From Planctomycetota bacterium (lineage in GTDB: Bacteria > Planctomycetota > JAJSAM01 > JAJVHW01): a stretch of DNA of 64,000 nt. Made by a program: the position numbers and the translations under genes. Numbering within the stretch: the stretch's first letter is position 1; the number at the start of each line of letters is the position of its first letter. Where the stretch lies: positions 62,001-126,000 of the forward strand of contig JAJFFG010000038.1 of the NCBI GenBank assembly GCA_021776825.1, read 5' to 3'. Below are positions 2,616-34,568 of this stretch, piece by piece. Below the pieces are notes generated by a model that saw only the letters and a program-made list of their open reading frames with translations, did not search any database and was not told the origin of the DNA.

Positions 2616-2679
2616 GCTAGCAGGCTGTCGCGCCAACCTGCGTGGCCCGTCGAGGCCGAAACTTCGACAGCCTGCTAGG
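2616..2679. repeat. solo palindromic element matching an end of the IS1182-like element at 32.7-34.3 kb
   Basis: GCTAGCAGGCTGTCG (2616-2630), 34-nt loop, CGACAGCCTGCTAG (2665-2678). The loop is about 30/34 identical to the loop at 34288-34321. Confidence 0.85.
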
Positions 2680-27128: not shown

Positions 27129-30100
27129 GTGGCCGGAGCACTCCTCGTCCCGGCGCTGAGCGGCTTCGCGGGAGAGGACGGTGTCCTCGCTCGCGACGGG
27201 GACCGCCTCAGCACCGAGCGGACGTCCGGCGACACCGACGACTTCGACATCGACCTCTCCGAAGGTGGCAGCCTCTCCGTCAAGCTCACGGCCGACCGGC
27301 GCTCGAGCCTCGTCCCGGAGATGACGCTGTTCCGCCCGGACGGCGTCGAAGCCGACATCGCGGACTTCCTGAAGAAGAGCGGTACGCAGAAGCCCCAGCT
27401 CAAGCGCTTCACACCAGCGAGCGGCGAGACGGGGAGATGGACGCTTCGCGTCGGTGGAGTCGGAGAGGGCGCGTACACGATCCAGATCGGGGTCGCGGCC
27501 CCGACAAGCTCGAAGACGAAGGGACTCGTCGTCCCCGCAGGCGGCACCGCGCGGGTCGAGGTCACGGCCGACGACGCCGCGCTGCTGACCGCCCGCGTGA
27601 AGCGCAAGGACGGGCCGGATCTGACCGGCGCGCGGCTCCTCCGGCCGGACGGAAGTCTGCTCCCGGACTCCGGCCAGGCGTTCACCGCGAAGGGCAAGTC
27701 GCTCTCGGTGAAGAAGCTGCCCCTCGCGGGTGGGTTCGGACGCTACGTCCTCGAGCTGACCGGCGCAGCCGACGCCGACACCGTCGTCGACGTGACGACC
27801 AAGGTGAAGGCGGCGAAGATCCGGCGCCGCAAGGAGACGTTGCCGCCCGAGGGTCGGCTGACGCGGGCATCCCGCTCGGTCGTGAAGCAGCAGGACTCAG
27901 CGCTCGTCATCGACCTGGCCGGCTCGGACATCCTGCCGGGTTCGACGGTCGCGTTCGAGGGTGAGGGCATCACCGTTCGTGGGGTCGAGATCACGAGCCC
28001 ATCGTCGATCCGCGCGACGATCGACGTGGCGTCCGACGCACCCTATGGTCCGCGCGGGGTCTCCGTGCGTCCCCCACCGCTGCTCGGTGAGGTGTTCCGT
28101 CTGCGCGAGGCGTTCGACGTCCACGCGCCGGATCCGGCGGTGGCATTCTTCTCCCCGTCCACTCTGCGCCAGGGCGATCTGAACGTCGCCGTCAACGTGC
28201 TGGGGACCGCGTTCCGCGACGGCGGGGCGCTGTCCGTCTCCGGCGCGGGAGTCACCGTCGGCGCGACCAGCGTGCTCTCGGCCTCGATGGTGCGGGTCGA
28301 GCTCTCGACCGCGATCGACGCTCCAACGACGTCGCGCACGGTGACCTGGCGCCAGCCCGAGGAAGGTGGCGGCGCGAGCACGACGGCGTTCCTGCCGCTG
28401 GCGGTCGCCAACCCAACCCCCGTGCTGACCTCGCTCGAGCCGGCTCGGCTCGGACGTGGCGACGTCGCCGTGATCGTGACGTTGCGTGGCGACCACTTCC
28501 GCGAGGGCGGTTCCGTGACGATGGGCGACGGCGTGACCGTCGAGGGCGGCACGTTCGCAAACGCCGGTCGCTTCCGCGTCAGCGTGACCGTCGACGAGGA
28601 CGCGACGCTCGGTATGCGCGACGTGACGTACACCCAGCCGGCGTCGGGAGGCGGCGCAGCGACGACGTTCGCGGACGGCCTGCTGATCGAGGCCCCGGCG
28701 CCAACGATCACCTCCGTGACTCCCACGTCAATGACGCGCGGCGAGGGACCAACTCTCGTGACGGTGACAGGTGCGGACTTCGAGAACGGGGGAGTGATCT
28801 CGATCGAGGGCGTCGACCTGACTGTCGGCGCGACGGAGTTCATCGACGGGACCACGGTCCGGGCTCCGGCAACCGTGAACTCCGGCGCGGCCTTCGGTGC
28901 GCGGCTCGTCAGCTTCACGCAGCCGACCTCGCTCGGAGGAGCCGTCGGCTTCGGCGGCTCCCTCGCGGTGCACGCCCACGCACCCACCGTCACGGCAATC
29001 TCGCCCAATCAGCTCGACCAGCGCACGAGCGGCACCGTCACGGTGACCGGCACGAACTTCACGACGCAAGGGGCGCTGTCGACCAGTGCTGCGGGTGTGA
29101 CATTCTCGAACCTCACATACCTCTCCGAGACCCAGGTCCGCGCCGACTTCGACGTCCCGTCGGATGCGCCGAGCGGGCTCCACGACGTGCAGTTCACGCA
29201 GTCCTCGGCCGCGGGTTCGGGCACGGCGACGCTGGTCGACGGGCTCGAGATCCTCGACACGCGCGTCCTCGTGACGTCGATCTCTCCGGAAGACTGGCTG
29301 ACCGGCGCCGCGCACTTCCGCGTGACGGTCATCGGCGAGCACTTCAACACCGGAACTGCGGTCTCGGCATCGGGCACAGGCGTCACCATCCACTCGGTCA
29401 CGGTCGTCTCATCCACTCAGCTCACGCTCGACGTCAGCGTGGCGTCGACCGCTGCACTCAGCGGCCGTGATCTGACGATCACGCCGGGACCGGACGGTCC
29501 TGATCCACGTACGTTCACGAACGCGATCACAACCGTCCCTGCCGACCCGACCGTCGTGTCGTTCAGCCACGTGGCGCTGGCCCGCGGGGCAAGCAGCGTC
29601 GCGGTGACGATTACGGGGACGAACTTCCGCACCGGCGACGCGCTGAGCGCGAGCGGCACGGGTGTCACGTTTGCGAGCGTCTCGATCGTGAGCCCCGAGC
29701 GAGTGACTGCGCTCGCCACAGTGACGAGTGGCGCGACGCTCGGAGCTCGCGACCTGACCATCTCGCACGCCACGTCGGCGGGTGGTCGCAGCGACACGCT
29801 GGCCGATGGCGTCGAGATCATCTCGGCCACGCCGACAATCACGTCGGCCAGTCCGAGTTCGATCGGTCGCGCTGGGAGCGGAGGTGCCACGCAGACCCTT
29901 CCGGTCCGCGTGACCGGCACGGGCTTCATGACCGGCGCGGCGCTCAGCGTCAGCAAGTTGACCGGTAGCGGACTCAGCGTCGTCAACGGCAGCGAACTCG
30001 TCGTGTCGAGCACGCTGCTGACCGCGACGCTCTCGATCGCTGGAACGGCCACGCCGGGGCTGTGGGACGCCAAGGTCTCGAACCCGAGTGCGCTCGGTGA

Positions 30101-32666
30101 CTCCGGGGCGTCGGGCAACGGGGCGATCGACGTGAAGACCGCGTCGACGCTCGTCGTGAACTCCGCAACCCCTTCGCCGGGCGCCGCATTCGGCGATGAG
30201 GTCGTGACCATTCGGGGCGGAGGATTCACGTCGGGCGCCATCGTCGATTTCGGAACGGTGCGCGCAAGCGGCGTGCACGTCCTCGACAGCCACACGCTGC
30301 TGGTCAGGGTTCCGGCGCCGACGTCGCCGTCGCGCACGCTCGAGACGCGCGTCAACGTCAAGGTGACGCTCGCCAGTGGCTCGAACGCCACGCTGCTCGG
30401 CGGCTACGCCTACGCCGCGGACACGGGATCGTTCCGCGTCGTGACGAGCTATCCCGCGCCGGATGCGACCGGCGTGACGCGGAGCCTCGTCCGCGCCGGC
30501 CTATTGCTCTCCGCACCGATCGACACCGCGACGGCAACGTATGACGGGAGCGCCGGTACGGGTCCGAGTTCGACGGGCTTGCGATGGTTCGAGGTGAACG
30601 GTTCGGGGGTAACGGGAGGCAGCATCGCGTTCGGCCCGAACGGTCGCTGGATCGTGTTCAAGCGCAACGCGGGTTCGCTGACGTCGTCGGGTTCGTACGC
30701 ACTCGGCGCGACCAGTGCCGTGCGCTCGACGAGTTCCAATCCGCTGCGGCCCGTCGTCGAAGACAGCAGCACCGTCGAACAGATCGCATTCGACGTCCAC
30801 GCGAGCGCCACCGACACCACCGCGCCGACGCTCTCGTCGATCAGCCCCGTGAGTGCGGCGACAGGCGTCGCGCCCAGCAGCGTCGTCACGCTCACGTTCT
30901 CGGAGGCCGTGGACCCGAGCACGCTCGCGGCGAACGTTCAGCTCGAGCTCGGCAACGGCACGATCGTCGCGTCGCGCGTCGACGTCTCGGACGACTGGGA
31001 CACGGTGACGCTGACGCCGGACACCGAGCTCGCGACGAGCACGGCGCACACGGTCCGCGTGAAGTCGGGCCTGCTCGACGCGAGCGGCAACGCGATCGTC
31101 GCGCTGACGCGTACGTTCACGACCGGAACAGGGGTCGACACGACGGCGCCGACCATCGTCGACGTCCAGGTCGCTGATCTTCGATCCGACATGGACGGCT
31201 CGGGCACGTACGTCAACGCGACGGGCGTCAACACCGCATTCGACAGCTACCTCGGTCGGTCCGGATGGCGCGTCGTCGTCACGTTCGCGGACGAGGGCGG
31301 CGCGGGGATCGACCCGTCCACGTTCTCGGCCAAGGCATCGGTCGCCGTCGGCACGGCAGCCGCCAACGCGGAGCTCGCCGCGCAGTTCGTCGTGACCCAC
31401 ACGCAGGCGTCGTGGCGCGTGCCCGCCACGTTCCAGTTCACGGCGGGCGAGAACGTGACGCTCACCTTCCTCGTGAAGGACAGAGCGGCCACACCGAACA
31501 CCTCGACTTCAACGGTCATCACCTTCGATGTCGTCGACAAGGACACCCTCGCCGCCGCCACCGTGGGCGGCGACCACGATCCAATGGATGCGCGCCGCAC
31601 CTGGCTCCTGCGCGGTGACTCGGACAACTACACCGCCACATTCCACGAGCTCGCCGACAACGTGGTGACTCCAGCCGATGAGCGTGACCGCGGCGTAACG
31701 ACGACGCTGGGCGGCAACGGCATTCGCGATGTGCAGGAGGCCCTGGAGCTCGTCGGACTCAACTCCGGCAGCATGACGACGGCCGCAGCCGCGACCGTCA
31801 GTGGCACGAATCGCGGCACCAACGACATCGCCTACACGCTGTTCATGCGGTCCCACCGAGCCGCCGTGCGCGAGCGCTTCCGCATCGACGCCGACGGCAC
31901 GCGCGACGCTTCGTCACCGGACATCGAGTTCCTGATCGAGGGCGAGCAGGGATCGTTGAGCTCGCCACCGCTGTGGTCGACGACGAATGCGCAGACCAGC
32001 ACGCGCCCGTTCTCCGAGATGACCCTCGGCGGAACCGCCGGGGCCGACACGTCGCAGTTCGGACTGTCGAACTCCGTGCTCGGCCAGGCCTGGCTCGATC
32101 CGCGCAATCGGGTCGAGGTCGCGAACATCAATGACGGCACCAACAACGCGACCGGCGTGTACATGATCCACTATCTCGACTTCGAGCTGCCGAGCACGGG
32201 CCGCCTGCGCACGGAGGTGGCGGACCGCTTCCTGACGCTCTGGGGCGGCACGCCGCTGGGCGAGCACGCGAGCGACGACGACGTGCTCGCGGGGACGTTC
32301 GACCGCACGACCAGCACGAACACGACTCACAATGCGCGCTACGACGACATCATGGACGGCATCGACTTCGTGGCGCTCCTGGTCAGTTCAACGACCGCTC
32401 ATGAGGTCGGACACTCGATCGGTCTCGTCGCTGTGGGAGCCCCGAAGACTGGCCTGTTCGGCGGCGCGCACGAGAACAACACGTTCACCGAAGCGACGTC
32501 GATCTCGCCCAACACGAGTGCGCATCTGAACGTGATCGGTCCCGAGGTCATGGCCGCCGTCGCCGATCCGACCGCCGACACGGCAACGGGGTCTGCACTG
32601 GCACGCTTCAACCGAATGATCCAAGCCTGGATGCTCGGCCGACTGATGCACGACGAGGGGAAGTAG
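27129..32666 (+). CDS. tandem paralogue of the preceding giant secreted protein
   Basis: Co-linear domain order; DTDDFDIDLSEGGSLSVKLTA…; AHEVGHSIGLVAVGAPKTGLFGGAHENN. GTG 27129 truncates the expected signal peptide, so the 5' end is uncertain. Confidence 0.82.
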   Translation: MAGALLVPALSGFAGEDGVLARDGDRLSTERTSGDTDDFDIDLSEGGSLSVKLTADRRSSLVPEMTLFRPDGVEADIADFLKKSGTQKPQLKRFTPASGETGRWTLRVGGVGEGAYTIQIGVAAPTSSKTKGLVVPAGGTARVEVTADDAALLTARVKRKDGPDLTGARLLRPDGSLLPDSGQAFTAKGKSLSVKKLPLAGGFGRYVLELTGAADADTVVDVTTKVKAAKIRRRKETLPPEGRLTRASRSVVKQQDSALVIDLAGSDILPGSTVAFEGEGITVRGVEITSPSSIRATIDVASDAPYGPRGVSVRPPPLLGEVFRLREAFDVHAPDPAVAFFSPSTLRQGDLNVAVNVLGTAFRDGGALSVSGAGVTVGATSVLSASMVRVELSTAIDAPTTSRTVTWRQPEEGGGASTTAFLPLAVANPTPVLTSLEPARLGRGDVAVIVTLRGDHFREGGSVTMGDGVTVEGGTFANAGRFRVSVTVDEDATLGMRDVTYTQPASGGGAATTFADGLLIEAPAPTITSVTPTSMTRGEGPTLVTVTGADFENGGVISIEGVDLTVGATEFIDGTTVRAPATVNSGAAFGARLVSFTQPTSLGGAVGFGGSLAVHAHAPTVTAISPNQLDQRTSGTVTVTGTNFTTQGALSTSAAGVTFSNLTYLSETQVRADFDVPSDAPSGLHDVQFTQSSAAGSGTATLVDGLEILDTRVLVTSISPEDWLTGAAHFRVTVIGEHFNTGTAVSASGTGVTIHSVTVVSSTQLTLDVSVASTAALSGRDLTITPGPDGPDPRTFTNAITTVPADPTVVSFSHVALARGASSVAVTITGTNFRTGDALSASGTGVTFASVSIVSPERVTALATVTSGATLGARDLTISHATSAGGRSDTLADGVEIISATPTITSASPSSIGRAGSGGATQTLPVRVTGTGFMTGAALSVSKLTGSGLSVVNGSELVVSSTLLTATLSIAGTATPGLWDAKVSNPSALGDSGASGNGAIDVKTASTLVVNSATPSPGAAFGDEVVTIRGGGFTSGAIVDFGTVRASGVHVLDSHTLLVRVPAPTSPSRTLETRVNVKVTLASGSNATLLGGYAYAADTGSFRVVTSYPAPDATGVTRSLVRAGLLLSAPIDTATATYDGSAGTGPSSTGLRWFEVNGSGVTGGSIAFGPNGRWIVFKRNAGSLTSSGSYALGATSAVRSTSSNPLRPVVEDSSTVEQIAFDVHASATDTTAPTLSSISPVSAATGVAPSSVVTLTFSEAVDPSTLAANVQLELGNGTIVASRVDVSDDWDTVTLTPDTELATSTAHTVRVKSGLLDASGNAIVALTRTFTTGTGVDTTAPTIVDVQVADLRSDMDGSGTYVNATGVNTAFDSYLGRSGWRVVVTFADEGGAGIDPSTFSAKASVAVGTAAANAELAAQFVVTHTQASWRVPATFQFTAGENVTLTFLVKDRAATPNTSTSTVITFDVVDKDTLAAATVGGDHDPMDARRTWLLRGDSDNYTATFHELADNVVTPADERDRGVTTTLGGNGIRDVQEALELVGLNSGSMTTAAAATVSGTNRGTNDIAYTLFMRSHRAAVRERFRIDADGTRDASSPDIEFLIEGEQGSLSSPPLWSTTNAQTSTRPFSEMTLGGTAGADTSQFGLSNSVLGQAWLDPRNRVEVANINDGTNNATGVYMIHYLDFELPSTGRLRTEVADRFLTLWGGTPLGEHASDDDVLAGTFDRTTSTNTTHNARYDDIMDGIDFVALLVSSTTAHEVGHSIGLVAVGAPKTGLFGGAHENNTFTEATSISPNTSAHLNVIGPEVMAAVADPTADTATGSALARFNRMIQAWMLGRLMHDEGK

Positions 32667-32667
32667 C

Positions 32668-34336
32668 GCTAGCAGCCTGTCGGAGTTTCGGCGTCGCCGT
32701 GCGAGAGACCGCCGGCGCGACAGGCTGCTAGCGATAGACCCCGGCGTCGGGCATCAGAGCGTCGCCGCCGAGGACGATAATCTGGGCATGAGAGAGAAGG
32801 CGTTTCGGGCGTGGGAAGTGGATCAGGTCTGGCTCTTCCCGCCGTCCGTGAGGGACTTCGTCCCCGATGGTCACCTCGCGCACTTCGTGCGCGACACGGT
32901 GCGCAACGACTTGGACCTGAGCGCGATCTTTGCGCGCTACAGCGGGCGCAACGGCTACCCGCCGTACCACCCGGCGATGATGGTCTCGCTGTTGCTCTAC
33001 TCGCTGTGCCGCGGCGTGTACTCCTCGCGCAAGATCGAGCAGGCGTGCGAGGAGCGCATCGACTTCATGGCGGTGACGGGCATGGCCAAGCCCGACCACA
33101 GCACGATCTGCGCATTCCGCGACGATCACCGGCACGCGCTTGCGGGGCTCTTCGTGGGAGTGTTGGCGCTGTGCCGCGACGCGGGCATCGCGAAGATGGG
33201 CCATGTGTCGCTCGACGGCACCAAGATCCGCGCCAACGCGTCGAAGCACAAGGCGATGAGTTACAAGCGGATGAAGAAGGCGGAGCCGGAGTTGGCCGCG
33301 GTCGTGGACGAGTGGCTCGCGCAGTCCGAAGCCACCGACACGAGCGAGGACGCGGAGCACGGGCCGGATCGCCGCGGTGACGAGATGCCGGCGCACGCGA
33401 TGGAGAAGGCGCGGCGGCTGGCACGTATCCAAGCCGCAGCGGCGCGTCTCGAGGCGGACGCGGAGGCCAAGGCAGAGCGCATTGCCGCCGAGCGCGCGGC
33501 GTGGGAGAAGGAGCACGGTCGCAAGCTGGGGGGCCCCAAGCCCAAGGCGCTCGACGGCGTGCCGGAGGACAAGGCGCAGAGCAACTTTACCGATCCCGAG
33601 AGCCGGATCATGAAGACGCACGACGGCTACCAGCAGTGCTACAACGCGCAGGCGGCCGTGGATGCGGAGAGCCAGGTGATCGTGGCGGCGACGCTCACCA
33701 ACTCTTCCAACGACAGCGCGCAACTTGAGCCGCTCGTCCAGGAGATCGAGGCGCACGCGGGCCGGGCGCCGCGCGAGATCTCAGCGGACGCGGGGTACTG
33801 CTCCGAGCTGAACCTCGCGACACTCATCGAGCACGGCATCCGCGGCTACGTGGCAACGGGACGTCAGAAGCACGGGACGTCGAGCGCCACGGGCGAGAAG
33901 GAGCCGAAGGGGCCACTGACGCGGGCGATGCGGCGAAGACTCCGTCAAGGCGGCTGGCGGAGCCGCTACCGATACCGCAAGCACACGGTGGAACCGGTCT
34001 TCGGGCAGATCAACCCGTCTTCGCGCAGAGCAAAGAGTGCCGAGGCTTCCGGCGCTTTCTGCACCGAGGGCTCGAGAAGGTCTCGGCGGAGTGGACCATG
34101 CTCTGCACGGCGCACAACCTGCTGAAACTGGCCGCTGCGAGGGCGTGAGCGGGGCCGTTTCGAGCCGGATTCGGCCAGGAATCCGCTCCAGAGGGCCCGC
34201 ATCGGCCCGGGACGCCGCAGGAGGCCCGGCCGCGCCACAATTCGCCGCCGCTCGCACCCCAGTCGGCCTATAGCTAGCAGGCTGTCGCGCCAACCTGCGT
34301 GGCACGGCGAGGCCGTAACTCCGACAGCCTGCTAGC
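32668..34336. mobile_element. IS1182-like insertion sequence with hairpin termini
   Basis: Terminal hairpins 32668-32732 and 34273-34336 are imperfect inverted repeats of each other and enclose the transposase. Confidence 0.85.
32788..34148 (+). pseudogene. IS1182-family DDE transposase, C-terminus frameshifted
   Basis: MREKAFRAWEVDQVWLFPPSVRDFVPDGHLAHFVRD…HTVEPVFGQI. Frame breaks after 33997; ECRGFRRFLHRGLEKVSAEWTMLCTAHNLLKLAAARA* continues in another frame to 34148. Track ORF ends 34125. Confidence 0.88.
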
Positions 34337-34568
34337 CCGGACTATTCATGAGGCTCGCGCACTCCGTGACAACTGTCGTCCGGGAGTACAGGAGCAGCCT
34401 GGATGCGGGGGCCACGGCACGCGCAGAGAGGCCCGTCCTGAGCGAGGACAGAACGTCGAGATCAAGGCGCGCCGACAACTGCGACGCCATTCCGTCTCCG
34501 AGGAGGCGCAACGCCGAGATCGGCGGTCTGGACCGCTCAGGTGTGTGAGTCGTCATGAATAGTCCGGG
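34336..34568. repeat. MITE-like element, 233 bp, perfect TIRs, CTAG flanks
   Basis: CTAG-CCCGGACTATTCATGA … TCATGAATAGTCCGGG-CTAG; no convincing ORF inside. Confidence 0.85.

Follow-up and report, generated by a model that had tools for sequence, protein, structure and literature searches.

In Staphylococcus, the IS1182-family elements IS1272 and TnSha1 take a DNA hairpin as their target and replace it or delete part of it, with no duplication of the target (PMC5678879, PMC4923244). The insertion sequence described here, located in a 64,000-nucleotide stretch of a Planctomycetota genome (the window), encodes a transposase of the same family and also involves hairpins, but here the hairpin is the end of the element rather than its target. 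Unlike IS1272, the nearest tested relatives of the window element duplicate the tetranucleotide CTAG with no loss of sequence, and stem-loop replacement of the IS1272 type is not indicated, as judged from the exact single-CTAG empty sites of these relatives only. Linear-ended IS1182 elements, such as ISMno38 of Methylobacterium nodulans and copies in Roseomonas, share the transposase family, the tip GAGCCTGTCCGAGTAA preceded by CTAG, and the CTAG flanks. They lack an inverted internal copy of this tip, with best matches of 5 to 11 of 14 positions, whereas the window element matches at 14 of 14 at both ends.

Many short palindromic repeats tied to one transposase gene, as observed here, are also characteristic of REP/REPIN repeats, whose RAYT transposases are HUH tyrosine enzymes (PMC3733652). 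In contrast, the window element has terminal inverted repeats and a DDE transposase, whose domains are DDE_Tnp_1 and DUF772 and which is not of the HUH tyrosine type found in the IS200/IS605 and RAYT-REP systems. The internal repeats of the P element and the IR/DR structure of Sleeping Beauty provide several transposase sites per end, and in the window element the end sequence likewise recurs internally at each terminus. These systems are unrelated to it and differ in copies, spacing, and orientation; any function of the internal copy in the window element is putative. A literature search for IS1182 elements with CTAG and a hairpin returned nothing relevant.

A decayed IS1182 element and its CTAG flanks

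The element is a decayed insertion sequence of the IS1182 family and, with its maintained dyad ends, a new structural variant of that family (Table 1). Its transposase scores 328.2 bits against the NF033551 profile (cutoff, 270) and contains the Pfam domains PF05598 (DUF772) and PF01609 (DDE_Tnp_1), which bears out the IS1182-like identity proposed in a first-pass annotation of this DNA. Alignment against relatives places the loss of the reading frame after EPVFGQI, at a 20-nt near-duplication, and the transposase is not intact. The frameshift marks a decayed copy, and the family membership stands. Because this is the single full-length transposase copy in the assembled genome, with all other matches being fragments, the element as assembled is probably dead.

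Table 1. Features of the element and its surroundings, in window coordinates
Feature	Position	Strand	Basis
Lone right-type hairpin, CTAG on both sides, no adjoining IS interior	2616..2679	-	Sequence; one of nine lone units
Palindrome at left terminus (65 nt; 35-nt loop), arms GCTAGCAGCCTGTCG / CGACAGGCTGCTAGC	32668..32732	+	Sequence, folding
Left-hand CTAG of the 4-bp target duplication (by homology)	32669..32672	.	Read in sequence; single-CTAG empty sites in two relatives
IS1182-family insertion sequence, 1659 bp, CAGCCTGTCG...CGACAGCCTG	32673..34331	+	Ends aligned with relatives' ends
Inner arm, left end: IS tip and CTAG copied inverted	32718..32731	-	Inner-arm tip varies less than loop
IS1182 transposase ORF (DUF772 and DDE), C terminus frameshifted	32788..34125	+	NF033551, Pfam, alignment with relatives
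Near-duplicate GTCTTCGGGCAGATCAACCC / GTCTTCGCGCAGAGCAA, 20-nt shift	33997..34033	+	Sequence and alignment with relatives
Palindrome at right terminus (64 nt; 34-nt loop), arms GCTAGCAGGCTGTCG / CGACAGCCTGCTAGC	34273..34336	-	Sequence, folding
CTAG, right target-duplication copy, common to adjoining MITE	34332..34335	.	Read in sequence
Unrelated CTAG-flanked MITE (CCCGGACTATTCATGA...TCATGAATAGTCCGGG), many genome copies, adjoins IS	34336..34568	.	Sequence

The tips CAGCCTGTCGGAG and CAGGCTGTCGGAG align to GAGCCTGTCCGAG of the relatives and form the terminal inverted repeats of an IS1182 element. The CTAG-bounded hairpin ends described in the first-pass annotation stand, but by homology their outer CTAGs belong to a target duplication lying outside the element, so the true termini move 4 bp further in. 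Both ends are self-complementary as annotated, with 15-bp arms that are 100% complementary, and one end repeats the other in inverted orientation over 35 nt (91%). As single-stranded DNA, the two palindromes fold at -26.9 and -25.1 kcal/mol (z = -5.9), and none of 200 shuffles was as stable. A search of Rfam gave one sub-threshold match elsewhere in the element and supports no known RNA structure, and no intrinsic terminator was detected at the ends. Upstream, an ORF of 1845 aa (27129-32666) stops 2 bp short of the IS flank, and the insertion therefore lies after its stop codon. The adjoining MITE belongs to a second CTAG-flanked family, is about 233 bp long, and has CCCGGACTATTCATGA as its end sequence.

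We compared the ends with those of IS1182 relatives in genome and plasmid records from bacteria and archaea, which carry CTAG followed by GAGCCTGTCCGAGTAA at both ends. Two Roseomonas plasmid copies, with proteins of 57 to 60% identity, supplied the empty sites: their flanks, joined by a single CTAG, equal uninterrupted plasmids over all 304 bases (100%), and further records match at 98.7 to 99.7%. As these empty sites hold exactly one CTAG, the target is CTAG and is duplicated. The duplication is demonstrated in the Roseomonas relatives only; the window element has CTAG on both sides and, by homology, would insert at CTAG and duplicate those 4 bp. No empty site was found for the window insertion itself, interrupted genes and other intragenomic comparisons in its genome gave no clear or clean case, and no empty-site record was found for a copy in M. 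radiotolerans. In two relatives, the duplicated 4 bp read from the ends differ from CTAG (TGAA in L173 and TTCA in L216). In genome G001, two hairpin ends stand outer to outer with one CTAG in common (L281:1567-1682), like side-by-side insertions.

Hairpin ends within the genome and across the family

The arm 14-mer occurs exactly 150 times in the 6.88-Mb genome, with 75 occurrences each of the CAGCCTG and CAGGCTG forms, compared to 0 to 1 match for the reversed control; the arm repeats are thus not due to chance. From 1.19 Mb fetched around the exact arm matches, we collected 116 hairpin units (52 left-type and 64 right-type), a sample biased by the exact matching and improved only in part by a partner-anchored subset. 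At least 42 convergent pairs are present, one of them scored right-right, comprising the window element and 41 short elements of 123 to 638 bp. These 41 are MITEs that carry both IS ends without the full gene, and several hold transposase remnants; in all, about a hundred short copies accompany the window element in its genome. The loops are type specific, which indicates that the hairpins travel with the element. Because the left- and right-type loops also remain constant across many insertion sites, we ruled out that the hairpins are a duplicated target. One right-type hairpin (L057:9549-9622) has a loop 10 nt longer, apparently through a tandem duplication. The same genome also contains the relic of another IS1182 element (L320:1-336, contig G000:C2) with hairpin arms CTAGGAGMCTGTCC of the GAG..CC type, a C-terminal transposase remnant, and an adjoining short CTAG-bounded palindrome beginning CTAGCCCGGATCG.

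The remaining 32 units are unpaired, and many represent truncated elements or contig ends. Nine of the unpaired units are lone CTAG-hairpin-CTAG units with no IS interior beside the inner CTAG, and a single end may be able to move alone. Each end would then be a minimal transposon (CTAG, tip, loop, tip, CTAG), and the insertion sequence would combine two of these micro-elements, one on each side of a transposase gene. This arrangement fits the inner arm, which holds both the tip and CTAG, as well as two hairpins at L077 that have one inner CTAG in common, but the lone units could be deletion remnants. In addition, 57 bp is very short for cut-and-paste transposition by a DDE enzyme, and we consider this origin of the ends very unlikely.

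To follow the doubled tip across the family, we scored the ends of about 90 relatives for an inverted internal match to the 14-nt tip. Plain linear ends prevail among IS1182 relatives of different phyla, close ones included. Linear ends score 5 to 11 of 14, and the upper value, reached at one of them (L205), meets the range of 11 to 14 found for the window element (L100), L122 (G001), L299 (G008), and L128 and L136 (both G006). L299 and L136 reach 11 at one end each and score higher at the other. These five elements, from four genera, form one Planctomycetota clade in a quick transposase tree (SH-aLRT, 97; no bootstrap). L134 (G106) scores 12 and falls outside this clade, so the tip palindrome must have been gained at least twice, with at least one occurrence elsewhere. 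A strict hairpin pattern matches 3 of 395 Planctomycetota genomes, and all genomes of the hairpin clade are draft assemblies. The doubled tip is real, inherited, and conserved within a small Planctomycetota group, beyond the window copy.

Other palindromes occur near IS1182 ends. The nearest sisters of the hairpin clade, L123 (G053) and L127 (G005), have strong internal end palindromes that exclude the tip. Three distant relatives in G232 (L132, L137, and L140) carry a perfect palindrome of 26 to 27 bp upstream of the transposase, whose arms covary between copies and whose loop has opposite orientations in L137 and L140. Despite the 26-bp arms, a terminal position of the G232 palindromes is not supported, as homology extends past them.

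Maintenance of the inner arm

The inner copy of the tip sits 46 to 51 bp further in with its own CTAG, which makes the termini palindromes of 60 to 65 bp. Among partner-anchored units, the inner tip varies at 2.6% of positions (18/700) and the loop at 8.8% (181/2062; Fisher's P = 3e-9), a roughly 3.4-fold difference which indicates that the inner arm is maintained. The outer tips are more variable than the inner tips (65 versus 22 changes, summed counts), and arm positions 8 and 10, which also vary in the linear tips of relatives, account for much of the variation in the arms.

We favor, at a probability of about 0.45, the explanation that the inner tip is kept in active lineages by a second transposase contact. 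Each end would act as a dyad built from two oppositely oriented copies of the 10-bp tip, and the transposase, or a transposase dimer, may contact both copies while pairing the ends. The ability to fold would be a by-product or a secondary benefit, and mirrored base changes would derive at least partly from template switching between the arms. An extra transposase contact is, on sequence evidence, the most likely role of the inner arm, and the dozens of MITEs that carry both hairpins are consistent with it. Three observations speak against it: the inner arm reproduces no more than the outer ~10 bp, without the GAGTA(A) tip extension of the relatives; the tip-to-inner-arm offsets of 46, 47, 48, 49, and 51 bp keep no constant helical face; and in G006 pairing continues three bases past the tip in an end-specific manner (GGG/CCC on the left and CCG/CGG on the right), a feature unnecessary for a second binding site. 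In G006 and G008, a weak rule based on the tip extension served to tell outer from inner arms.

The first-pass annotation had instead taken the C of the left end and the G of the right end, each matched by its partner in the opposite arm, as a sign that the folded end itself is recognized. The matching is present within each window hairpin but is not general among the genome copies: of the 64 right-type hairpins, 45 have G/G as the variable pair, and 11 have a mismatch with C in the outer arm and G in the inner arm. Uncompensated mismatches are frequent, and some are common to copies at different sites, namely, an outer C against an inner T-type base (C.A) at position 10 in L033 and L097, and an outer C against an inner G-type base at position 8 in L034, L053, L071, and L079. 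Their identity in related copies at different sites indicates that imperfect hairpins have transposed. The refuting outcome named in the first-pass annotation, mismatched arms that are not compensated, was thus observed, and compensation is a weak argument for recognized pairing. A hairpin or cruciform recognized or cleaved by the transposase, with arm pairing under selection, would nevertheless accommodate the perfect arms of the transposase-bearing copy, the strong folding, the freely varying loop length, and arms that differ between ends and elements and are still paired (C8/G8 in G000, T10/C10 in G001, other arms in G106, and the extended pairing of G006). The copies are related, and shuffles pooled over them overstate their independence. 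The transposed mismatches, the mirrored changes that postdate insertion, the DDE transposase, the linear ends of close relatives, and an inner CTAG that shows no significant excess of conservation over the loop (P = 0.21) count against it. A folded end as the substrate is possible but unproven from these alignments, and we regard its recognition under selection as rather unlikely. We likewise find it improbable that the DDE transposase of this clade recognizes or processes folded ends, whether hairpins or cruciforms, or that it can mobilize one 57-bp hairpin end by itself.

Some mirrored changes also postdate insertion. A changed flanking CTAG is mirrored in the inner arm of L042, L060, L069, and L087, and the opposite flank of the first three is still CTAG, which shows that arms can become matched mutationally once the element is in place. 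Guide-like target choice by the inner 4-mer was rejected, as 3 of these 4 mirrored non-CTAG copies keep CTAG at the other flank. Arm homogenization by polymerase template switching has been described (PMC8794818, PMC8604942), and an inner arm that arose once could be passively upheld as one arm is recopied onto the other. Mirrored changes number 17 compared to 3.9 expected under independence. Most arm changes are not mirrored, however, and correction alone therefore appears too weak to hold the inner tip through an intergenus divergence that erases the loop. Several elements also keep the inner arm at both ends, and the paired units of the window's genome show no spacer inversions, all of which makes passive upkeep an unlikely explanation by itself.

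These results advise caution in reading mirrored base changes in DNA palindromes, which are no proof of selected pairing, since some arise here after insertion. Because the IS1182 family includes IS1272, which is reported to target hairpins, the hairpin-ended clade, with sisters whose ends are linear and natural copies numbering well over a hundred, is a convenient system for testing whether DNA secondary structure is read by a DDE transposase.
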